This document shows, piece by piece, positions 30,613 to 52,022 of a stretch of DNA of 64,000 nt. Position 1 is the stretch's first letter. Each line of letters begins with the position of its first letter. The position numbers and the translations under genes were made by a program. The stretch is from NCBI RefSeq assembly GCF_900120175.1, contig NZ_FQLF01000002.1, forward strand, positions 124,001 to 188,000. Direction: 5' to 3'. The stretch is from Oceanicoccus sp. KOV_DT_Chl (GTDB taxonomy: Bacteria > Pseudomonadota > Gammaproteobacteria > Pseudomonadales > Dasaniaceae). The notes below the pieces were generated by a model. The model worked only from the letters and a program-made list of their open reading frames with translations, ran no database searches and was not told the DNA's origin.

Positions 30613-33320
30613 CTAACCTAACTCCTCATCCATACGGTCAGCAATAACAAACACCGCCTCCAATTCAGAACAATGTTGAGATTTCATAATCTCAGCGCGC
30701 TGTTGTTTTTCATGCTTTTCCGTCATCGCCAGCGCCAACGCTAAGGGTGGAGGCACATTTCTGAAAAGGCATTGAAGATTATCTGATAAAACCACACCCT
30801 CGGTGTAATTCCCCGGTTCTTTTCTGGCTGCGCGAAGCATGCCTTTTTGCTCTTCCGTCAGGTCTTTGAAGCGAGAGATTTGTTCAATTTCTTCTTTGGG
30901 GCAAACCATCGCGATCCACCACTCAAACATGCTGAGCAGCTTTTTTGCAGCGTCAGGAAAATCTTCCAGATTTTGTGTCGCCAACCACAACCAGGCACCG
31001 AGTTTGCGCCACATTTTTACAATTTTGACCAGAAAAATGGAGAGTAACGGATTTGTGGTAATCAAATGTGCCTCATCCCCCAACACAAAGGTGGGACGAT
31101 GATCGTACTGCTCCCTTTCTACGACGCCATTGATTTGATTCATCAACCCCATAAAACCTAAAGCGAGCTGGTCTTCATAGCCTTCATTAGCCAACAACCC
31201 CATTTCCATAATGGTGACATCGGCCTCTGGCCAGGCCTTACCCACGCGATTAAAAAAGTGCCCAGCAGTGCCTGAACAATACAGAGCCATCGCATCCCCC
31301 ATGTCTTTGGCTCGCTCTCGGCGCTTGGGCGTGCTGGATTCGTCCAGTGCCAATTTATTCAATGCGCTAACCACATCCTCAGTTAATACGATTTCCTGAC
31401 TGCCAGCCGCTTGCTTGTCTTCTGCAGCGATGATGATTGCTTTTCGAATCGTCAGCCTATCGGCCCGTGTCATGAGTGCTTCTTCCTTGCTGTCACCACC
31501 GGTTATCATTATCCGGGCTTTCAACTCCATCTCACCCAACAGGTCGCGCACCTCAAGATCATCACTGCTATCAGAAGCTTCTAATGATGCGTCTTCATCA
31601 AAGGAAGCTTGCTGAGCAATTTCTCGCTTCAGCATTTCATAGGCATCCGCAAAAGGCGGCAAACTCACATCTTCTTTGGGGTGAAGCGTGATTTGGTTGA
31701 CGCTCAAGCCAAAGTATTTGCAATAGTCACCAAACAGCTTAAATGATCCCCTTTTTCAATAATGTAAATGCGCGCACCGTAAATGGCGACGACCTGCAAG
31801 AGGACGTACACCATCAAAGCAGATTTGCCCGAACCCGGAGGCCCTAACACCAAACCAAATGCGTTTTTGGCTCTATCCAATTTATTCAGTGGATCGAACG
31901 TTAGCGGCTCGCCACCGCGATTGAAAAACACCATGCCGGGATGTCCCGTGCCCCGACTGCGGCCATAGAAGGGTAGTAATCTAGCCAGATCACTGGAAAA
32001 CACGAGACGGCTTTTGCGGTTAATCTTTTCCCGCATCGGTTCATAGTTCATCGGCAGCTGTCGAATATAGGTATCCAACGGCAACAGTTCATCTTTTTCT
32101 CGAATGGGGTGCAAGCCATTAGCCAATAACAACGCATTGGCTTCATTGGTTTTCTTTTGCAGATCAGCCAGTGAATCACCACGAGTGAAAAGCGTTATGA
32201 CTGTAGGCAGCAGATAGTCACCATGGGACATCCATTTCAGTGCTTCTTTAGCATCCTGCTCAGCGGCCATCGCCTCGGCGGTTTCGCCCTTTGCAGCATT
32301 GAGCACTTGCACCACATGGTTTTCTACCAAGTCCTGTGGTTGCAGAGTCAGGCATATGGAAAGAATGCTGCCTTCAGGCAGCTTATCGAATAGCGCATAT
32401 AAATTATCACCAACCTGTCGTTCGCCAGTAAAGTGACCGGGTAAGGGTTTACGCCTCAACGCATCAACGGTAATGGCTCGGTGTGGCAACTCGTCAAACC
32501 ACCAAACACCGTGTTGCTTATCAGACTCTGGTTGTGTCAGAAATAATAATTCCGATAGGTCGTGGCTAAATACCTGATCCTTTTTTTTGGGTAAGGGAAG
32601 TAACTCGATCAAGGCATCGAGATCACCTTGAACCACGTCCGCCGTGGGGTTAAACCATCGCAATAACCAAGTGTAGAGATCACCGTCGTCACAACGTCGA
32701 GTACCGATTCCGCTTGCTACCATCTGTGTAACAAAACGTTCAGCAACCTGATTTATTTCAATAACGGGATCAGCATGCTCGTTATCATTAACCTCTCGCC
32801 GACGATAAAGAAACACTCGCACGCGACGCACTTTACCTCGCCAATTACCACCAGTAACCGTGGTATCTTCAAACAGCCCTGAGCTCCGTGTCATTCGCTT
32901 AAAATGCCGTTGCATACGGGCTACAAAATTCTTTGCCAGAAGGCGATGTTCTTCTGTTTGCCTGCAATGTGTTTCTACATAAGCATCAAGGGACCGAGAC
33001 AATACTGACAGTGAATCTTCATCCGACACAAAGCATTGCAGCACAAAGGGGTTGTCATGTGCAGGGATGGTATGATTGATACAAGTTTGAATATTAGCCT
33101 GAACCTCATGCAGAAAACTGTCAGAACGCGCCTCGGTAGATACACCGGTAATTTCAAACATCGCTGCAGCGCTATATCCATCTTCGAGCGTGAAAGTTTC
33201 GGAAGCCTCGTCGTAATCCACCCAAGGCAACCAATCGCCCAAGGTGACCGGGCGACGATAGAGCTGATCGACATCATTATCAGTAACCACTGATGTGTTT
33301 TTTGATGGTTTAAATAGCAT
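30613..33320 (-). pseudogene. Conjugative transfer ATPase (TIGR03744, TraC/VirB4-like), frameshifted
   Basis: The motor ATPase of the T4SS. The first half (residues 1-538) ends ...FGLVLGPPGSGKSALMVYVL (Walker A), ARIYIIEKG, then leaves frame. The second half resumes with SFKLFGDYCKYFGLSVNQIT and contains FVLGDEAHLI (Walker B). One base added to the C4 run at 31748-31751 joins them into a 902-residue protein, close to the family's length. The ATG after the AGGAGGG site is preferred over an upstream GTG. Without repair, transfer would be lost, so the break matters for whether the element is mobile. Confidence 0.9.
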
Positions 33321-33322
33321 GG

Positions 33323-33679
33323 CTATTCCCACCCTCCTTGTTCACTCGGTATGGCAATATGGTCTTGCGTATACATCCGGAAAAATGTGCTGTAGCCAGG
33401 CACTGGATGACCTGCTGGTGTTAGATGTTTGAAGACATACATACTCAAAGTTGGATTTGGCAACCACATAAAATCACCCTGCATCGATTCTTCTTTATCA
33501 CTGTCCAGTCGATCAGGTTTTTTCAGTTTTACATCGTTAGTTTTATGAAATTTATTATCGTGAATGGTCTTCATCGATGGCATGTCCGTGCCAAAGACTT
33601 TTGCCTTGGACGTTGTACAAGCCGACAACAATCCGCCGCTAATCCAAATTACGGTTACTATGAGCATCATCTTTCGCAT
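33323..33679 (-). CDS. ICE lipoprotein TIGR03751
   Basis: A conjugative-transfer-region lipoprotein of 118 residues. The signal peptide ends LLSAC (Cys21), followed by TTSKAKVFGTDMPSMKTIHD and a conserved FMWLPNPTLSMYVFKHL block, as in the family. It probably anchors the outer-membrane core of the T4SS, as VirB7-like proteins do. AAGGAGGG precedes the ATG. It overlaps its upstream neighbour by 41 bases. Confidence 0.85.
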   Translation of the reverse strand: MRKMMLIVTVIWISGGLLSACTTSKAKVFGTDMPSMKTIHDNKFHKTNDVKLKKPDRLDSDKEESMQGDFMWLPNPTLSMYVFKHLTPAGHPVPGYSTFFRMYTQDHIAIPSEQGGWE

Positions 33680-41055: not shown

Positions 41056-44000
41056 TCATGCAATGCTCTGAGAAACCAGCTTCATATTACCAAGGCCGCC
41101 CCATAGTTCTTTGTTGCCGACAACGTAAAAATTCTGTTTAGCTCTGGACACTGCTACGTTGAGCAAATTGACATTACTTGTTGCCCAGTTTCTGGCTCCA
41201 TTCTGCATCGGGCTAGGCGCACCTAACAAAAGAATAACAGCTTTTGCCTCTTTTCCCTGAAATGTGTGCACGGTCCCTATATTATTACCAATCCATTTAT
41301 CGGGATCGATAATTCCGAAGCTCAACAGCCGTCCTTTTTCCTGCTCCATGCGTCGTCTCATTCGTTCGGCTACAATCCGGAACGGGGTAATCACAAATAT
41401 ATCGGGGTCACCCGAAAAATACTCGCTGGCTTTGAGGAGCATGCCGCATACACGCTCTCCTTCTTCGGGACACCATTTTTCTTCCGCACTACCCCGCACA
41501 TCTATCCATGACGTTTGACTGCCGAACAACTTCGTAATTTCTGAATCCTTAAAAGCCGTCGCATGAACCATTAAACCGGAATAAGCGAGTTTATTAGATA
41601 TCGAAAACATGGGATCTTCACAGCGTCGATGCACTAGAAGCGGCGTTCCGATCCTGATTTCACTTAAATCTCTTGGGATAGTCGTGCCGTAAATATTACT
41701 GTTATCAGAAAGTGTTTGAACGGAAGCATCAGGAGCCGCCCATTCGTCTGGATTAACCCCTAAATGCTTTGAAATACCTTCAACAATAGAAGAGGGCAGT
41801 GTCACAATAGGCTCAATTTGCAATGGATCTCCCACGCTAATGACGCGTTTGGCTCTATAGATTGCACCTACAGCTTCTTGGGGTGAGGCCTGTCCAGCCT
41901 CATCAATGAGTAACCATCCAAGACTTTCTTTCGGTAAACCTTTCATCATTCGCCCCACTGACGCAAATGTCGTTGACATGACAGGGACCACCATAAATGC
42001 GCTCGACCATAGGTGCGGAAGTAAATGCTGTTTATCCTGAGGTAAGGGTCTTCCCCCCAAGCATGCAAAATAGGCAGCCATGTTTTGGCGAAGTTTTTTA
42101 CCGGATGCATCAATAAAGGCTTTATGCAGCTTTATAGCTGAAATAAATACATCATCTCTTAAGCGCTGTGCTTTATCGGTAAAATTAGGCGTGAATATCT
42201 GCTGCTCTTCATGATTCAATAGCCATAAATCAGGCGTTACAAGCTTTCCATCACATACGGCTGAAGCCTTTTTCAGCTCGCCAAGAGAGGCTTTCAACTC
42301 TTCTTCAAGCACTTTCTCCTGAGATTTACGCTTGATAATTTCTGTTTCCAGATTTTTGATCTTATGATCAGACACATTCAAGCTCTTGACCCCATTATCA
42401 TATTCTTGTCGAAACTCAACAAGTTTCGACAAGATGAGTTGGTGATCGGATTTCCACGAATGCCATTGAGATCGAGCGAAAAGGCGCTTAAAGAATCCAG
42501 GCTTTTTGGACAAAGAGAGACTTTCCTTATCCTGTTGTGTTTTTAGTTCCGCATCCTTTTTCAGAAAAACGGTTTTAAGCTGATCACTTTCCGACTTAGC
42601 TAGACTGATACTTTTTTCTAATTCTGATTGCTTTGATCGATTGCCAATAATTTGTATTTTGAGTTCGCTAGCGACATGATAATTCTCGTATGCATTTTGT
42701 GCTAAGCCGGTCACATTTTCAGCAGCCTCTAGCGCCAAACTAAATTCTTGTCGCGCTTTGTCCCATCGAGCCTTAGCTTCATTCAAGCTTTTAGGCGGGT
42801 CACACTCCTCGATAATTCTAGGAATGATGTCTTCACCATCTTCATCCACTTCGAAGTTCAGCTGTCCCGTGATGTATTTAAAGTACTTTTGCAACGCAGA
42901 GTTATCATCCCACCATGCCTTATTGATGAAGGCACTCCGGTTTTTTGAATTTCCTAAAACCGCCGCAATAATCCCCCATGTCTCTGTATCTTCTCCGTCA
43001 CCTGCTAATTCATCACTAAGGGTTTTAAAATAATTCAGCTCTTCAATGTCTTCAGCTATCTGTGATTTGCGTGGCAGCTCTTTGCTGACATTTTCAACAG
43101 CCTTATTGTTAGACGAGGCCACAAGAACTTCATGACCACGAAGCGAGCCATCAAGCTTATAGAGATGAACAAAGCTGTTCCCGAGCTTCATTTTTCCGGC
43201 ATGCTCAAAGGCATCTTCTGCATCTTTGAACTCGAATAAAGCTCTGGCTCTCTTAACAAGAACAGCAGCAATTATGTCGCGCAAAAGAGTTGTTTTACCC
43301 GTACCCGGTGGCCCATTCACCGAAAATAACCCATCGCTCCATAATTCTTTCACTGCCAGATTAACCGCTGCTTGCTGAAGCAATACAAGTGAATGACGCC
43401 CCTTACTCGGCCAGCGGGATAACGGCATATTTCGGGGCTCTAGAGCTTTTTCAATATGTGCTTTATCTTGAAGCACATCATATTTAACTTCAGGTTTTTT
43501 AATTCCAAGATAGCAAGAAAGCGCTTCACCGCTTTTTCCCGTACCAACCGCCTGCTTGGCACGCTGTAAATCATCCAGAAAGAAGCTGTTCAGAAGCGGC
43601 GCATCAGGTTCACCTCTACTGAAAGGTTGATATAGACGAATAGCAAATGAAGGCGCTACGCTTTCGTCTATGGGAAGCTCATAATTACTAGAAAGCCAGT
43701 CAAAGGCCTGCCTAGCTTTTTGTAACGTAAAAGGTAAAACCTGACCCTCTTCATTTTGCCGATAAATTATTTTATCCAGCCCTTCGGTAAGGGCCTTTTC
43801 TGCAACCTCCCAGTATTTAAGCTCGCTCAGCTTGCCTTTCATAGCCATCATATAAGCCCAGCCAAAGCTTGAAATTGCCAACCCAGTATCGGGAACGGGA
43901 ACGCCATGCTTATCAAGCAATATGACGCCGAGCGCGGCCAACCCCTTAACTTGTGGACGCTCGATGCGCTTATCCTGATAAATGCTCAGTAACTGAGTTG

Positions 44001-44583
44001 TCGCTTTTTCAAGATCAACTGCGCCCAGGTAAACAAGATAATAAAGATTGTTTTTAGGAATAGATTTTTCGTCATTAAGCCACGGCTCCTGGCCTGCTTT
44101 TAAATAGGCTACTGAACCTTTTCCTACAACAAGGTCTTTGGGATTTTTATAGGATTGAGGAGAAAGTGCTTCAAGAGCCGTCCATGTGTCTAGTATATCG
44201 CCAGGCTGATCATCAAGGTGTTTTTCCTTTAGCGCCTCACCCCCGAAATTGGATAACACATCTGCGCTCGTTGATAGCAGCTCATCCCAATTAATAGCTT
44301 CATCGCTATTGATACCATTAGAAGGGGCTTTAACTGCAATAGAGGCAGATGACCGAGAAATCAGTTCAGCTCCTTCGGAGGCCGAATTTTCTCCATCTTC
44401 TAACTGGCAGTCATCTCTATTCAAGCTATTTTGAACATTTATCAGTAACTTTTTTGCGCGCTGCGTTGATCGATGCGCCAGCTCTTCCTCAAGCTCCTCA
44501 AGGGTAGCGCAATCGCCTCCGGCCTTTGCGTAAACGTCTTCGAGTTCGGTGATCTTGTGCTTGAAATATTTTCGGTTTTCCAT
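41056..44583 (-). CDS. Large SF1 (Upf1-like) helicase, cargo island
   Basis: An 1175-residue protein. The first 400 residues are unrecognised. Walker A VNGPPGTGKTTLLRD (424-432) follows, then a long coiled-coil insertion with KKPGFFKRLFARSQWHSWKS, then motif II LLIDEAGQASPQE, motif III VGDPLQIEPI, an RR pair in LLVHRRCEDPMF, VITPFRIVAERMRRRM, and motifs V/VI GTVHTFQGKEAKAV and LLNVAVSRAKQN. The core is complete, so it should be an ATP-driven nucleic-acid translocase. Similar COG1112-type helicases occur in several antiphage systems; which one this represents is unclear. Confidence 0.85.
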   Translation of the reverse strand: MENRKYFKHKITELEDVYAKAGGDCATLEELEEELAHRSTQRAKKLLINVQNSLNRDDCQLEDGENSASEGAELISRSSASIAVKAPSNGINSDEAINWDELLSTSADVLSNFGGEALKEKHLDDQPGDILDTWTALEALSPQSYKNPKDLVVGKGSVAYLKAGQEPWLNDEKSIPKNNLYYLVYLGAVDLEKATTQLLSIYQDKRIERPQVKGLAALGVILLDKHGVPVPDTGLAISSFGWAYMMAMKGKLSELKYWEVAEKALTEGLDKIIYRQNEEGQVLPFTLQKARQAFDWLSSNYELPIDESVAPSFAIRLYQPFSRGEPDAPLLNSFFLDDLQRAKQAVGTGKSGEALSCYLGIKKPEVKYDVLQDKAHIEKALEPRNMPLSRWPSKGRHSLVLLQQAAVNLAVKELWSDGLFSVNGPPGTGKTTLLRDIIAAVLVKRARALFEFKDAEDAFEHAGKMKLGNSFVHLYKLDGSLRGHEVLVASSNNKAVENVSKELPRKSQIAEDIEELNYFKTLSDELAGDGEDTETWGIIAAVLGNSKNRSAFINKAWWDDNSALQKYFKYITGQLNFEVDEDGEDIIPRIIEECDPPKSLNEAKARWDKARQEFSLALEAAENVTGLAQNAYENYHVASELKIQIIGNRSKQSELEKSISLAKSESDQLKTVFLKKDAELKTQQDKESLSLSKKPGFFKRLFARSQWHSWKSDHQLILSKLVEFRQEYDNGVKSLNVSDHKIKNLETEIIKRKSQEKVLEEELKASLGELKKASAVCDGKLVTPDLWLLNHEEQQIFTPNFTDKAQRLRDDVFISAIKLHKAFIDASGKKLRQNMAAYFACLGGRPLPQDKQHLLPHLWSSAFMVVPVMSTTFASVGRMMKGLPKESLGWLLIDEAGQASPQEAVGAIYRAKRVISVGDPLQIEPIVTLPSSIVEGISKHLGVNPDEWAAPDASVQTLSDNSNIYGTTIPRDLSEIRIGTPLLVHRRCEDPMFSISNKLAYSGLMVHATAFKDSEITKLFGSQTSWIDVRGSAEEKWCPEEGERVCGMLLKASEYFSGDPDIFVITPFRIVAERMRRRMEQEKGRLLSFGIIDPDKWIGNNIGTVHTFQGKEAKAVILLLGAPSPMQNGARNWATSNVNLLNVAVSRAKQNFYVVGNKELWGGLGNMKLVSQSIA

Positions 44584-44706: not shown

Positions 44707-45282
44707 TTATATCTCCTTCTTAGCGCAAATCTTCTCAAAGATTCTTTGAATGCGATTTTGAGTGATATTTGCATTCGGGTCTAGATACGGAACGTCAAGA
44801 TGATTGAATACATGATCTATCTCTAGACTGGCATCGCGTCGAAACACCATGTTGGCGTCACGTCCTCCTCCGACAGGAATTGATTCGTCTAATGTGGTTT
44901 TTAGTAGTAACGCATAGCGCTTCGAGTGATTTTTTACTAAATCATATAAATAACTCCGCTCTTCGCTAGTAAGGCTTCGCTCAGTAGCCTTTAGAGCAGC
45001 CTCTAAATATCCGAGGGCATCGAGCACGGGCCGATCAACCAGAACCAGATCTGCGCTCAGCTCTGCTTCTAACTCAGCCTTGATTACGGAGACAATAATC
45101 CACAAGGTGCTCTCGAAGGTATGGTTCTCCAAAATAGGAAATCCAGCCGCTTGGCATTTGGTCGCTGTATCGCTAATTCGAATGACTGATATTCCTATAG
45201 CCTTCGCTTGGTTTTCGACCGTTTCAATGAAGGTTGATTTACCAGTTGAGTGAGTACCGGCAATTCCTAAAAAATAAGCCAT
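44707..45282 (-). CDS. P-loop kinase/AAA_28-like NTPase, third gene of the radical-SAM operon
   Basis: A 191-residue P-loop protein. Walker A is GIAGTHSTGKSTFIET at residues 6-20. DLVLVDRPVLDALGYLEAAL provides a Walker-B-like Asp followed by an Asp-Arg-Pro, as in thymidylate-kinase-like and NadR-like nucleotide kinases. An Arg-rich lid (GGGRDANMVFRRDAS) follows. It probably phosphorylates a nucleoside or small molecule, or acts as a GTP/ATP switch. Its start shares one base with the exonuclease stop, so the two are translationally coupled. Confidence 0.7.
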   Translation of the reverse strand: MAYFLGIAGTHSTGKSTFIETVENQAKAIGISVIRISDTATKCQAAGFPILENHTFESTLWIIVSVIKAELEAELSADLVLVDRPVLDALGYLEAALKATERSLTSEERSYLYDLVKNHSKRYALLLKTTLDESIPVGGGRDANMVFRRDASLEIDHVFNHLDVPYLDPNANITQNRIQRIFEKICAKKEI

Positions 45283-45887
45283 CAGAAGAGGCTCCCTTGT
45301 TGAGATTTAATAAAGGGATCGTCTGAACTCCCTGCGATTTGAGACAAAGCGAGCAGATCAAGCTGAGAGTCTTTGTCCATCTCCGAAACTAACACCAGAA
45401 AAAGCGCCGCCGTAATCTGCGCATCGCCACTTGCTCGATGGCGATTTGATGGATCTATTTTTAGGTTATACGCACTTATCAGTGCGTCTAGCGAATAGCT
45501 GCCCAGCCCAGGCCGGACATACTTTGCAAGCCTCAATGTATCGAGAATTGCTATTGGAGACCACTCACCGAACTGATTTCTCATTAGTTGAGTATCTACA
45601 CTCACGTTATGCCCCACCACAACACTTTTACCTAGAACTATTCTTATTTCGTTCGCCACCTCCTTGTGAGAGGGACATCCCACTAGATCGCTATTAGAAA
45701 TACCATGAATCTGAATAGCACGCTCAGTCACCGATCTCTTGGGCCGTATAAGCCAAGAGCATGGGCGACCTATTTTCCCGTCAGAGACAGGCACGATGGC
45801 GAGTTCAATGATCTCCTGAGGAACCTGTCCATTGCCCTCCACGTCTACTACAACAAAACGGCAGTCGGTCCAAGACGCGTTACTCAC
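45282..45887 (-). CDS. DEDDh 3'-5' exonuclease, second gene of the radical-SAM operon
   Basis: A 201-residue DnaQ/RNase T-type exonuclease. Exo I is VVVDVEGNGQ (Asp, Glu), Exo II VVGHNVSVDTQLM (Asp) and Exo III RHRASGDAQIT (His, Asp), so the DEDDh set is complete. It lacks polymerase or UvrC-type fusions. The GTG start overlaps the radical SAM stop (GTGA), so production is coupled to that enzyme. The substrate could be DNA or RNA; the partnership with a MiaB-like enzyme makes tRNA or modified RNA worth testing. Confidence 0.87.
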   Translation of the reverse strand: MSNASWTDCRFVVVDVEGNGQVPQEIIELAIVPVSDGKIGRPCSWLIRPKRSVTERAIQIHGISNSDLVGCPSHKEVANEIRIVLGKSVVVGHNVSVDTQLMRNQFGEWSPIAILDTLRLAKYVRPGLGSYSLDALISAYNLKIDPSNRHRASGDAQITAALFLVLVSEMDKDSQLDLLALSQIAGSSDDPFIKSQQGSLF

Positions 45888-47266
45888 AGCTGCCGAACCT
45901 CGATCAGGTGAGAAGATGCTCGGCGCGGCTCAGATACTTGCTGGTCGTCCACGTACTGCTCACATTCGGCTCGCCTGATTCGATCGATAATCAGTTCTTG
46001 CGATGTTGTATCGAGGAAACTCAAAAACGACTCCATAGCTGAAGCCTTCATATTCGCAATTATATTGGTCAACGCACTAACACGCTCATTCATAGTGCGC
46101 TCGTCCAGTTGGCTAGGCATTTCAAACGCGGGGGTGTTTTCGCGCGGTGAGAAGGGAATAGCAACGTTAATGTGAAATTCGAGCTCCTTCACAAGCGATA
46201 AAGTTTCCAGAAAATCACCGCGCTCTTCGCCCGGAAAGCCAATAAGCCAGTTTCCGTACAAAACGACAGGAGAGTTTTGACGGAGATCTTTCAATACATT
46301 GGTTAGTCGAGCTAAGTCATAGCCACGGTTCATCGCTTTAAGAATGCGCTCAGAACCGCTCTGAATTGATATATATAGAAGCCGGATTCTGCCATCTATG
46401 CTCCACTGAAGAATCCTTTTGGAGAACCTCAGGAAGGGCTTAGGCTCTATGTACCTAACCGAGATTGTTAAAGCAGGATCGAGGGCGAGCAGACTCTCTA
46501 CAAGCTCGGGAAAACGTGCCAGGGAATCTGGCGCGTGATAGTTACCGATCTCGTCGCCAATCAAAACAATGTGGTGTTTTCCCTGTTCTACCGCTTTTCT
46601 AGCCTTTTCAACAATGTTAGATAATGGGACCGACTCAAACTTGCCACGTCCCTGAGGAATACTGCAGAAGGTGCATTTGTAGAGACAGCTCCGCGTAACC
46701 GTGATCATTTCGCACGGGTCTTGTTCATCGTAAAACACAAACCCTTTGGTTGTCTGTCGATAGAAACGCTCTGCATGGCTCCCATGGAGACGATCAACTT
46801 CTTGCAGATCGGCAACGATAGATGCCTTAGAGGCTCCTACGCGTTGACGAAGATTCTGGAGACCATCAGAGTCGTTGTTTTCAAATCTGACGCTTGAGTT
46901 TTGAGATAGCAGCTGATCGACCTCAGAAAACTGGAGGTGGGTGTAACTGCTGAGAATCTCGGGCATCGTGCTGAAGGTCAGGCCTGGAATTGAAGTTTTG
47001 CTGAGTACCATGGCTGCGCTTGTATTTGCGATGCAGCCGGTGACATGAATTTTCGCTTGAGGAGCGCGCTTGCTAGCCTCATTAATTTGAATAATGGCGT
47101 CGTCCACCCAGCGGCTACGTACAGAGCAACCGGAATAAATTATTTCGTCCGCGTCCTCTGGCCGCGAGACTATTTCAAGACCTTCTTGATCTAGGCCAGT
47201 CCGTAGAACATTGAGATCGTAGGAGGAATTGAGGCATGTGTTATGAGCGAAATAAATTTTTTTCAT
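45884..47266 (-). CDS. MiaB/RimO-like radical SAM methylthiotransferase
   Basis: A 460-residue protein with both iron-sulfur domains of methylthiotransferases. The N-terminal UPF0004 domain has Cys11 (NTC), Cys47 (SGCSVR) and Cys78 (VTGCIA). The radical SAM site is TRSCLYKCTFCSIPQGRGK (CX3CX2C), with SGSERILKAMNRGY and NWLIGFPGEE downstream. The C-terminus is short and no clear TRAM domain is seen, unlike MiaB, so substrate recognition probably differs. The family methylthiolates tRNA adenosines or ribosomal protein S12. It leads a tight three-gene operon with an exonuclease and a P-loop protein. Confidence 0.82.
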   Translation of the reverse strand: MKKIYFAHNTCLNSSYDLNVLRTGLDQEGLEIVSRPEDADEIIYSGCSVRSRWVDDAIIQINEASKRAPQAKIHVTGCIANTSAAMVLSKTSIPGLTFSTMPEILSSYTHLQFSEVDQLLSQNSSVRFENNDSDGLQNLRQRVGASKASIVADLQEVDRLHGSHAERFYRQTTKGFVFYDEQDPCEMITVTRSCLYKCTFCSIPQGRGKFESVPLSNIVEKARKAVEQGKHHIVLIGDEIGNYHAPDSLARFPELVESLLALDPALTISVRYIEPKPFLRFSKRILQWSIDGRIRLLYISIQSGSERILKAMNRGYDLARLTNVLKDLRQNSPVVLYGNWLIGFPGEERGDFLETLSLVKELEFHINVAIPFSPRENTPAFEMPSQLDERTMNERVSALTNIIANMKASAMESFLSFLDTTSQELIIDRIRRAECEQYVDDQQVSEPRRASSHLIEVRQL

Positions 47267-47884: not shown

Positions 47885-48313
47885 TCACCCAGCTCCCTGA
47901 GTAAGTAGCTGTCCAGTTATAGCTTGGCATAAATATCGATAGCTTTGAGGTGGTTCAATCTTGTTTTTGGATCTTAATTGCTTCAATGGAACTTGCTGAT
48001 CCAAGTTCCAGTATTGTGAAATCTCTATAGCTGATGCCATATCACACCCATTAAAGTACTCTAAAAACTCCTGCCGACTAACGCCTGACTGTGCTCCGAC
48101 TTTCCTCCAAAGTGATGCTGGCTTTCCTTGAATAATATCACCAATAACAAAAGCTCCAACTAAACACATGGTAGGACTCGATTCATAAACCAAAGCTAAA
48201 TCTCCGGCACTAACCTTAGGACATTTCCTTCTTAACTCATATTTTTTTTCTCCTGCTGAAATAAGAGATACATATTTTGGTTTAATCGAAAAAAGTACAG
48301 CTTTATTATCCAC
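47885..48313 (-). CDS. ASCH-domain protein
   Basis: A 142-residue PUA-like ASCH domain protein. SIKPKYVSLISAGEKKYELR carries the G-x-K-x-x-E-x-R signature, followed by VSAGDLALVYESSP and CLVGAFVIGDII. ASCH domains are thought to bind RNA and some act as nucleases (established for the superfamily). The gene overlaps the GNAT-PIN gene by eight bases, indicating coupled translation. The C-terminal half of GNAT-PIN looks like a second domain of this fold. Confidence 0.82.
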   Translation of the reverse strand: MDNKAVLFSIKPKYVSLISAGEKKYELRRKCPKVSAGDLALVYESSPTMCLVGAFVIGDIIQGKPASLWRKVGAQSGVSRQEFLEYFNGCDMASAIEISQYWNLDQQVPLKQLRSKNKIEPPQSYRYLCQAITGQLLTQGAG

Positions 48314-50410
48314 TTTTATTCATTCCGTCAGTGTAAAGATTTATAAATTGCTCATTCGTAGTATTCTTGGGACTTATAGGTGCGCCGTTGATGCCATATT
48401 TTTGGAAATCTTCTAGCTCAACGGGGTTCTTAAAGTACTCCGTTTGGTAAAACCTCATAGCCATCACCTCTCCATCTGGATCATTTTTAGTGATTTCCAT
48501 TAAGTTACTCCATTCATAGATACCAAGTCTTTTATATTTTCTGAATAACCTTTTAGCAGTATCAGTTTCAGAAGATATAAGCCTTGAGCAAGCACGAATT
48601 TCGCTCACTTTATTTGCGCCATGGCTACTTACGTACCATAGAATTCTAGCTCCTGAAACCATACTAAACCGCTTGGGGGATCTATAATACACGTTTTCAA
48701 TATTAAAATGCTTGGTGGGATCAGCACCCCAGAGTTCTTTTTCAGCAAGCCCCTCATCAAACAGGTGGAGAGCCCAAACAGGCCTGATCGGTATCAAGTA
48801 AGTTGGAACATTACCGTCAGTAACTTTCAAAGGCCAAAAAGCTTCTTCATAGAGGGCTGCGTTATCCTCTGCTTGCAAAAAGGAGGATAAACTATTTCTA
48901 GCATGGTCATTTATTTCGGCCAAACCAGAGGAGAACTGGCTAACCTTATCTTTTGCCGTTGCTAAATTACATATGATATTAGCTGAAAACCTAACCCAAC
49001 CATTGTCCGATTTAATAAAACCGTTAGTCTGAAAAAGATCATCATTTTGGAAAGAGGAATAGTCATCGGTATATTTAATCAAAGACACTCCCCCATCAGC
49101 ATGAGAAAATATTTCTGCCCATGCAAAATTTTGAGCTATAGTCTTCGATGTTACATCACCAGCATGCCGCATAACATCTATTGAAAGTTCACCGCCTGCC
49201 TTTTTAAAGCATAAAAAGACTGCCTTTTGATCATCATCACTAGATACCAATAATGCTTTATATTGATTAGGGTTTGCTATCGCAGTTCGTATTTTTGCTT
49301 CTAGAACCTTCCTCTTTTCCCCGTGAGAAGGAAGGCAAAAATGCTCCGCAATGGAAGTGACCTCTTCACTTGAGGGGCAATGAACATGATACCTTGTACG
49401 AGAAATTGAACGGGGGGTATATTTTTCTAGATTTTCGATTTGATCCAATTGAGTGATGAACTCTACAGGACGAAGAGCTGAAATATTACAAACCTCATAG
49501 ATTTCATCTGCTCTAGCTAAAATGCCAGTATCCAGAGTTATAAAGTATTGAAATCCAGCTGCCGCTGAATAGGCAATATGATGCAGATCAGATCGATCTC
49601 TATCCTTTAAATTATCACCCCATAAAGGAAAAAGCTTGTTGCGATAGTTCTCAAAAGCAGTTCTTTTTATTTCAATTTTTTCAAACTTTTTTGCCTGAGA
49701 ATTACTGACTTTTTTTCTTTGGGGTTCTTTTTTCTTTCTGTTTCAACAAATATTTCAGGTGTGACAAAATACCTTACATATGGTGTCATCGCGTCCGATA
49801 TTAATGCTAAAGCCTCTTCATTTTCAGCCTTTTCTGGATCACTCATCTTAAACACAATATTGGCATCAATGACCGCCCAAGTAAGGCTGTCATCATCATG
49901 TCTAGGCATCATTTCATAAAAGAAATCTGGTATATCAAATTTAAAATACCAAATAGTTAGCTCTGATCCCCCTTTGGCCTTACCTTGCATGTGCCCAGCA
50001 TGCTCAAAACCAAGGCTAGGCCACATTCTACTGATCTCATAATCACTCCTGCAACGAACCTCAATACCTTTACAGTGTCCATCATCGGCATGCTGCCTAA
50101 GAGCCTCGAATAGAATTCGCGCACCACCTTTTCCTCGAATTTCACCTGAAACACAAAGGTGGGAAATTGCTACACGCTGCCGAGCCACCCTGTATAAAAG
50201 GTACCCCTTAACTTCACTCCTATCTAAGAGGTATAAAATTAGGTTTTTTCGTGCATGATCTTCAAATGCACCGCGAGGAAATAGCCCTAGAGTTGCTCTA
50301 TTTACCTTCCATAAATCAATAGCAGCCTCAAAATGCTCCTCAATAGATGAGTCTGCACTTACACTAAAGCTACAGGGTGCTAACGAGTTATCTACTAATT
50401 CTTTTGGCAT
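48306..50410 (-). CDS. GNAT acetyltransferase-PIN nuclease fusion, split by a -1 frameshift
   Basis: The first half (starting about 50410; a start at 50497 is possible) has a GNAT domain (YLLDRSEVKGYLLYRVAR, VSGEIRGKGGARILFEALRQ) and the beginning of a PIN domain (WAVIDANIVFKM, VTPEIFVETERKKN), stopping at 49667. The -1 frame continues with the remaining PIN acidic residues (DLHHIAYSAAAGFQYFITLD) and a PUA/ASCH-like C-terminus (RPVWALHLFDEGLAEKELWG, NVYYRSPKRFSMVSGARILW). The switch is at an A7 run (49710-49716) reading GAA AAA AAG, which contains the dnaX-type slippery heptamer A_AAA_AAG; a second such heptamer lies 15 bases earlier. It is either programmed frameshifting, a one-base assembly error, or decay. 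The full product would have about 700 residues. Confidence 0.75.
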
Positions 50411-50456: not shown

Positions 50457-52022
50457 TTACTTCCCTTTGGACTTAACTTTATAGTTATTTGAAACATCTA
50501 TTTTACAAATAGCCATCTGATATCCCAGCAAGTTATTCACATGGTAATAGGCGTTTTTCAACCTTACCTTCGAGAAGAAAGGTAAGGTCAGCACTCCGGC
50601 CTTCTCTGAGACAATTGCATATACTATTTTATAATCGCCAGTATCAGGCCGCGCGTTAACATCCTTAATTTTAAGCTCAGTAGGAAGCTTTTTATTTAAC
50701 GCTGCACGGAACTTCGAATCACTGCTAAATAGCTCGGCTGAAACCTCACCCTGAGCAAAAAGGTGACTTAAACTGCTTGATGCTGTTCCGCGTTTCACAT
50801 GAATTAAATCCGCTCCATCTTTAATAAGATCGCAATATTCGATACTGCTTCTTCCTCCGCCATGCACAACATTTTTTCTATCCATTAAAACATAGGAATT
50901 ATGAGTAGCAACAAAATCATTGTATGCGCCCTCACCATCGTGGTCATAAATGGGGAGCTTATGTGTGTAATTATCAATTTTTGATATTGCAGAATTTACT
51001 TTATTTACAAAGTCATCTTCAACATTAAACCAGCTTCCATTTTGAAGGATATATAAACTGCCACTGTCATTTATTTCAGCGTATAGGCAGTTATATGCCG
51101 ACCATGACTTGATAACATTATAGTTATCATCTGTTGAAGATATTGTGTGCTTTCGAATATCTTCAATAAAATATGAATTATTTTTACTATTAATAACCTC
51201 TATTAGCTTATTTAGCCTTAGCTCTGGATAATAATTCGTCCTTTTTCCTTTTTTCTCTAAGACGTAAAATGAAGTAGCTTCCCAGTCAATAATTTCTGGT
51301 TCAGCCAACCAGCAGTTAGCAGGTATAGGACTTGTTTTTAACAGCTTTAACAACTTCAAGTCCAAATTATCTAGAAGCGCATCATCTTTTATTCGGCGGA
51401 AATTATCGACCCAACCAAATGATTTTTTATAGTCGCCTTTTTTATAAAACTTATGCGTTTCTTTAAGTATTCCACAAAACCCATCCAGTCCCTCTTTAAC
51501 ATTTAGAGTTAATGCATCTCTTCCAGTAACCTGCGCACCAAACTTTTCAACCTTTGAGCTGCCTGTTATCGCAGTTAAAAGGTCAACTTCCGTATTCAGA
51601 GCTAATTCGAATATATCTACGCCTTTGCTGGCTTGGGTTCTTGAGTTAAGGGGGGTTCTTTCGTGAGATGCTTTATCGATACTTCTGAGCTTATCTTCAC
51701 CAATACTATTGAGCGCTACCTTTAAACCATAATCTCGTTGAATTAAGCTTTCCTGTATTAAATGCCTCCCCAATCCAAAAGTTATCATAAATTTAGCTTG
51801 CTTGAGTTCGATGACTAAAACAGCGCCTGGGGAACTACTATTTCCAATTTCCTTCTTGTCGACATGGCCCGCGAATAAGGTTGCCCATGATGGTGGATGC
51901 GGCTCCGCTTTTCTAATATATAAATTAGCTTCCTCAGCACCATCTAAGTTTATTGAGAAACAAGAAAGAGCATCAATATCCTTAATGATTTCCTTATCTG
52001 CCTTACTCTTATTCTTTGCCAA
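50457..52022 (-). CDS. TIGR04141 family (DUF6119) sporadically distributed protein
   Basis: A 521-residue protein matching the TIGR04141/DUF6119 layout. An N-terminal domain has FSINLDGAEEANLYIRKAEP and VLVIELKQAKFMITFGLGRH, a middle region CWLAEPEIIDWEATSFYVLE, and a C-terminal domain YVLMDRKNVVHGGGRSSIEY, CDLIKDGADLIHVKRGTASS, SLSHLFAQGEVSAELF. Genes of this family occur patchily on mobile islands and their biochemistry is unknown to me; a nuclease-like role has been suspected because of the conserved Lys/His-rich C-terminus (inference). It heads the operon with GNAT-PIN and ASCH. The start is a TTG without a strong ribosome site. Confidence 0.75.
   Translation of the reverse strand: MAKNKSKADKEIIKDIDALSCFSINLDGAEEANLYIRKAEPHPPSWATLFAGHVDKKEIGNSSSPGAVLVIELKQAKFMITFGLGRHLIQESLIQRDYGLKVALNSIGEDKLRSIDKASHERTPLNSRTQASKGVDIFELALNTEVDLLTAITGSSKVEKFGAQVTGRDALTLNVKEGLDGFCGILKETHKFYKKGDYKKSFGWVDNFRRIKDDALLDNLDLKLLKLLKTSPIPANCWLAEPEIIDWEATSFYVLEKKGKRTNYYPELRLNKLIEVINSKNNSYFIEDIRKHTISSTDDNYNVIKSWSAYNCLYAEINDSGSLYILQNGSWFNVEDDFVNKVNSAISKIDNYTHKLPIYDHDGEGAYNDFVATHNSYVLMDRKNVVHGGGRSSIEYCDLIKDGADLIHVKRGTASSSLSHLFAQGEVSAELFSSDSKFRAALNKKLPTELKIKDVNARPDTGDYKIVYAIVSEKAGVLTLPFFSKVRLKNAYYHVNNLLGYQMAICKIDVSNNYKVKSKGK

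Follow-up and report, generated by a model that had tools for sequence, protein, structure and literature searches.

A recurrent, unnamed operon family encoding a radical SAM protein, an exonuclease and a kinase-like protein, with a rare MiaB-like variant in Oceanicoccus sp. KOV_DT_Chl

The stretch of DNA analysed here, 64,000 nucleotides from contig NZ_FQLF01000002.1 of Oceanicoccus sp. KOV_DT_Chl (positions 124,001 to 188,000; hereafter the window), carries three overlapping genes coding for a MiaB-like radical SAM (rSAM) protein, a DEDDh 3'-5' exonuclease and a P-loop kinase-like protein. This trio belongs to a real, recurrent and unnamed operon family, of which the copy in the window is a rare MiaB-like variant. 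Tentatively, and with confidence a little short of even, the trio may be considered a compact cassette for the production of a nucleotide analogue.

Recurrence and organisation of the operon family

Using a profile of the kinase-like protein, 132 relatives were detected among 84,980 genomes, the best 80 of which were fetched and supplemented with plasmid and viral loci to give a set of 96 loci with kinase scores above 140 bits. A domain search matched an exonuclease in 95/96 loci, and an intact or fragmented rSAM gene could be distinguished in ~90/96, with the gene order rSAM - exonuclease - kinase kept wherever it was read. The hosts include members of the Proteobacteria, Actinobacteria, Cyanobacteria, Acidobacteria, Myxococcota and Bacteroidota. 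Plasmid copies with this gene order and short overlaps occur in Agrobacterium, Sinorhizobium, Roseibium, Mesorhizobium, Gluconobacter and Streptomyces, and a Nocardia plasmid copy contains a broken rSAM gene. In the window the rSAM and exonuclease genes overlap by four bases and the exonuclease and kinase genes by one base (Table 1), and identical overlaps are found in the trios of Vibrio, Polaromonas and Luteimonas strains, the proteins of which share roughly 40-59 % amino acid identity with those of the window. As a negative control, viral-contig kinases scoring below 70 bits had neither an exonuclease nor an rSAM match in their loci; as these distant kinases lack the partners, the linkage is specific to the kinase family of the trio. 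The chance insertion of a MiaB paralogue is ruled out by the recurrence of the trio.

No DNA match was obtained in E. coli genomes, none of 95 host relatives contains the kinase, and phage records returned only 26-27 % matches, to Streptomyces phage thymidylate kinases. PADLOC names neither the kinase nor either of the two rSAM types described below, and its matches to the exonuclease of the window are limited to generic DEDDh and PDC-S48 models. Text searches returned no description of the trio or of an antiphage methylthiotransferase. The initial annotation of the window had described a coupled three-gene operon which was not recognised as a named system; both statements are borne out, and the occurrence of the trio in other genera shows that it is not peculiar to the window.

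Table 1 Features of the trio and its upstream flank in the window
Feature	Position	Strand	Details
MiaB-like rSAM protein, type W	45884..47266	minus	ATG start, 460 amino acids, no TRAM domain
UPF0004 (methylthiotransferase N-terminal) domain of type-W rSAM	46997..47260	minus	Pfam
Radical SAM motif CLYKCTFC (C194, C198, C201) of type-W rSAM	46664..46687	minus	Sequence
DEDDh 3'-5' exonuclease	45282..45887	minus	GTG start, 201 amino acids
P-loop nucleoside/nucleotide-kinase-like protein, AAA_28	44707..45282	minus	ATG start, 191 amino acids
Kinase Walker A, GTHSTGKST	45232..45258	minus	Sequence
Terminator-like hairpin 3' of upstream ASCH gene	47885..47904	minus	Hairpin scan, weak evidence

Two radical SAM types in one slot

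The rSAM protein of the window (type W) incorporates the UPF0004 (Pfam, 1.6e-12) and Radical_SAM (1e-19) domains characteristic of the methylthiotransferases MiaB, RimO and MtaB. As in these enzymes, all six iron-sulfur cluster cysteines are present, with both the CxxxCxxC cysteines and C11, C47 and C78 of the UPF0004 domain invariant in 4/4 full-length type-W proteins. Type W differs from the MiaB, RimO and MtaB enzymes in several respects. No TRAM domain was detected by Pfam in the same four proteins, whereas E. coli MiaB, analysed alongside as a control, showed one (4.9e-21), and the linker ahead of the radical SAM domain is roughly 40-50 residues longer. The scores of the window protein are furthermore below every NCBIfam cut-off (TIGR00089, 213.7 against 251; MtaB, 184 against 357; MiaB, 154.5 against 355; RimO, 152.9 against 357). 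In a maximum-likelihood tree, sampled without archaeal and eukaryotic MtaB, the type-W proteins form a separate clade on a long stem, outside MiaB, RimO and MtaB (support 100/100).

Nearly all loci carry a different rSAM protein in this slot (type A), which is not MiaB-like and resembles spore photoproduct lyase. The type-A proteins, of about 378 amino acids, share a CxxxCxxC motif and four further invariant cysteines (C271, C292, C295 and C303, numbered as in locus L006), and are barely detected by Pfam, while a type-A profile found no relative among solved structures. The type-A structure model (predicted local distance difference test score, pLDDT, 92) is a radical SAM barrel that aligns best with PFL-activating enzyme (Z 16.4), followed by spore photoproduct lyase (Z 16.1, 3.3 Å over 250 residues) and RlmN, NifB and viperin (Z 14-15). 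PADLOC models matched neither type A nor type W, the latter scoring with methylthiotransferase models instead. In loci L012, L040 and L085 the type-A gene is split into two open reading frames (ORFs), with the exonuclease and kinase genes remaining open.

The alignment of type A with spore photoproduct lyase, which extends over most of that protein, together with the DnaQ/PolC/ExoX-like exonuclease, would be expected of a DNA repair or modification module, in which the rSAM protein reverses or makes a DNA modification, the exonuclease proofreads or processes ends and the kinase recycles nucleotides. This explanation is considered unlikely, as the type-A score with PFL-activating enzyme is equal and those with RlmN, NifB and viperin are nearly as high, so that the likeness is not specific, while type W belongs to a sulfur-inserting superfamily and the sporadic presence of the trio in mobile elements is unlike that of housekeeping repair.

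Type W could be found in the window, Vibrio sp. MEBiC08052, Polaromonas sp. AER18D-145, Luteimonas sp. RC10 and, in interrupted form, Herbaspirillum sp. RV1423, with no other copies found. In the last strain the rSAM gene stops early, and the exonuclease and kinase genes adjoin a transposase-like gene on a different contig. A scan of the 84,980 genomes with the single type-W protein found nothing, and in 369 genomes searched within the class, as well as in ~300 genomes from each of the Polaromonas, Vibrio and Luteimonas host families, only the known copies came up; type W is thus rare and sporadic. Among viral contigs it occurs in the Vibrio copy only, and a near-identical exonuclease and kinase are encoded on the fragment L094.

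In a tree of the concatenated exonuclease and kinase, six W loci, including two without a readable adjoining rSAM gene, group together as a single clade (99/96) to the exclusion of 37 type-A loci. This unrooted topology fits a single replacement of the rSAM gene, in either direction. The 28 kinase positions that are conserved in at least 90 % of the type-A loci are all identical in the W loci, and to judge from this shared sequence neither the kinase nor the exonuclease seems to change its function with the rSAM type.

Partner proteins and the putative nucleotide chemistry

The kinase-like protein of the window matches AAA_28 in Pfam (4e-7, 30.8 bits; cut-off 27), while no PADLOC model was matched. 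Its structure model (pLDDT 95) aligns best with the NadR ribosylnicotinamide kinase (Z 16.1, 3.7 Å over 173 residues), followed by thymidylate kinases (Z about 14-15; best 15.2, 3.1 Å over 166 residues) and dCK (Z 13.7), and AbmG, the albomycin thionucleoside kinase, is among its Foldseek matches. With both the P-loop and the DR motif present, the modelled protein has the nucleoside/nucleotide kinase fold shared by NadR, thymidylate kinases and deoxynucleoside kinases. An RNA end-healing kinase was also considered and was dropped as less probable, being absent from the fold list of the model.

The exonuclease matches RNase_T in Pfam (9e-26), retains the DEDDh catalytic residues D15, E17, D98, H150 and D155, and is nearest to the DNA exonucleases PolC, ExoX and DnaQ. 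At motif II, 66/95 aligned exonucleases have glutamate in place of the aspartate (D98 in the window protein), which all five intact exonucleases of the W loci retain. Streptomyces plasmids also encode close relatives of this exonuclease for which no kinase or rSAM gene is annotated (L140, 4977-5618; L142, 4974-5579), and one of the two adjoins lanthipeptide genes.

The type-A operons frequently incorporate accessory genes which point to nucleotide chemistry. An aldo/keto reductase is encoded in 39/96 loci, mostly directly downstream and in many cases with a 4-base overlap. An HD-domain protein weakly similar to dGTPases is encoded in seven loci (six directly downstream on the same strand, one on the opposite strand), and thymidylate-synthase-like and NDP-kinase genes occur at the start of seven Streptomyces-type loci. 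A DUF3800 gene located 54-69 bases upstream of the type-A operons in six loci (L011, 3058-4218; L030, L032, L033, L034 and L045), and nine bases downstream in L027, is a possible further partner.

In the proposed nucleotide-analogue cassette, the rSAM protein would alter a nucleoside or nucleotide, with type W adding a sulfur or methylthio group, and the kinase would phosphorylate either the substrate or the product, such that the active nucleotide builds up. This nucleotide would poison the polymerases of invading phages or of competitors, while the exonuclease would strip the analogue from the 3' ends of the cell's own DNA or RNA and so provide self-immunity. We infer the free nucleotide substrate, the sulfur chemistry of the product, the immunity role of the exonuclease and the antiviral or antibacterial purpose.

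An alternative for a MiaB-like enzyme is an RNA-directed system, in which tRNA or another RNA is modified, the exonuclease acts on RNA 3' ends by trimming or degradation, and released nucleotides or RNA ends are dealt with by the kinase. Type W is a methylthiotransferase homologue, and tRNA is the substrate of MiaB and MtaB. The absence of TRAM from all full-length type-W proteins, the resemblance of the type-A enzyme in the same slot to spore photoproduct lyase or PFL-activase rather than to tRNA methylthiotransferases, the nucleoside/nucleotide kinase fold and the affinity of the exonuclease with DNA exonucleases nevertheless render an RNA pathway improbable. On the basis of the kinase fold, the accessory genes of nucleotide metabolism, the loss of TRAM and the different rSAM protein of most operons, a nucleotide-analogue pathway provides the better fit.

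The initial annotation had proposed a pathway which modifies, checks and degrades RNA or nucleotides, composed of an rSAM enzyme without an obvious TRAM domain that might lie outside orthodox MiaB, RimO and MtaB, an exonuclease with a full catalytic set and a nucleotide-kinase-like protein. The descriptions of the three proteins hold, that of the kinase at the level of the model, and the nucleotide part of the pathway fits better than its RNA part, which has become doubtful. Of the two roles suggested, defence finds its support in the neighbourhood of the loci only, and manipulation of host tRNA is weakened by the loss of TRAM, the kinase fold, the accessory genes and the exchange with type A.

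Several observations weigh against the nucleotide-analogue cassette. A Nostoc operon contains the rSAM and kinase genes only, so that the exonuclease is not strictly required. Searches of solved structures with the kinase sequence gave P-loop-level matches only and no significant full-length match to a nucleoside kinase. Type A and type W, although occupying one slot, may yield different products. The substrates of the well-studied methylthiotransferases are tRNA or the protein S12, and we know of no member of the family that acts on a free nucleotide. Furthermore, one study places substrate recognition by methylthiotransferases outside TRAM (PMC5372745), which also means that an RNA-directed enzyme may not need this domain.

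A bolder form of the nucleotide-analogue proposal, which we regard as doubtful, envisages a widespread family of self-immune nucleotide-poison cassettes with a constant kinase and proofreading exonuclease and an exchangeable rSAM 'warhead', where the TRAM-less methylthiotransferase of the window would act on a free nucleotide in antiphage defence. If the nucleotide-analogue model is right, more than 100 loci would constitute an unnamed group making modified nucleotides with exonuclease-based immunity, and would present a rare natural case where the key catalyst of an operon has been replaced by an enzyme of another rSAM family, with its partners kept. The loci would also offer a direct test of the ability of methylthiotransferases to act on small nucleotides, and could serve as a source of new nucleoside antibiotics or antivirals.

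Genomic setting and comparison with known systems

The trio forms part of the cargo of a PFGI-1/TOL-type integrative conjugative element (ICE), with ICE families on both sides, as the initial annotation had recognised. Directly upstream (47885-49448) are genes for an ASCH protein and its upstream partner, which match the PADLOC candidate defence families PDC-M11B (2e-34) and PDC-M11A (1e-10), respectively, while a large AAA_11/AAA_12 helicase (41056-44583; best PADLOC match MkoC, 1.6e-64) is encoded 123 bases downstream. The hairpin after the ASCH gene weakly suggests separate transcription of the trio, four terminator-like hairpins having been found in the scan against 3.2 expected by chance. 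The same cargo region encodes a TIGR04141/DUF6119 'sporadically distributed' protein (50457-52022; 1.7e-147). Elsewhere in the ICE the conjugative ATPase gene traC (TIGR03744; 30613-33332) is split; one ORF (31704-33332) covers model positions 3-520 of 892 and its continuation appears to lie in a different frame, in an overlapping ORF (30613-31707), indicating either a broken transfer gene or a sequence error. The host rimO gene (G000:C2, about 685,660-687,060; L132, 1088-2481) likewise lies in two frames, with the UPF0004 part at 1088-1573 and the radical SAM and C-terminal part at 1480-2481, as a result of a broken gene or an assembly error.

Several loci are located near defence genes. The Polaromonas type-W locus directly follows a CapP-like peptidase gene and has SIR2-HerA nearby, and that of Luteimonas follows LmuA/LmuB-like genes. 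The Vibrio type-W locus is on a contig listed as viral by IMG/VR, and its neighbours, as we take them, resemble terminase and portal genes. SIR2, HerA and CBASS-type cyclases were matched in four genes each among flanking genes chosen from the non-actinobacterial loci (raw counts, among the matches listed for the top 25 families), and some plasmid copies have annotated CBASS, TIR and dGTPase genes in their vicinity. These neighbours suggest a role in defence.

The closest parallel by kind of enzyme is thmABC of Photorhabdus, where an rSAM protein, a nucleoside kinase and a resistance enzyme suffice for both the synthesis and the tolerance of 4'-thiothymidine (PMC12691670). As in the trio, three adjacent genes of sporadic occurrence are involved. 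The likeness is by enzyme kind only; the resistance gene product ThmC is a nucleoside triphosphatase, for which the trio has no gene and encodes the DEDDh exonuclease instead, and the kinase ThmB is AbmG-like by sequence, while the window kinase is not detectably so. Since this three-gene cassette makes a released nucleoside antibiotic, and many copies of the trio occur on plasmids and in Streptomyces, the same chemistry could instead serve a secreted antibiotic aimed at other bacteria. Such a purpose appears quite unlikely, however, as the recurrent flanking genes included no transporter shared by the loci, and the defence genes near several loci point to phage.

The nucleotide-analogue reading also finds parallels in the oxetanocin pathway, where the rSAM protein OxsB and the HD protein OxsA act on deoxynucleotides and the resulting aldehyde then needs reduction (PMC7074753), comparable with the HD and aldo/keto reductase genes of the type-A operons. 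OxsB is, however, a B12-dependent enzyme of another family, and no kinase or exonuclease is named for this two-gene pathway. In viperin with CMPK2 (PMC10058120), and in the prokaryotic viperins, an rSAM protein is paired with a nucleotide kinase to produce an antiviral nucleotide analogue, as is proposed for the trio, but neither rSAM type matches any PADLOC model and type W belongs to the methylthiotransferase superfamily. For the exonuclease, a precedent is provided by the coronavirus nsp14 ExoN, which excises ddhC, a chain terminator made by an rSAM enzyme (PMC9415739).
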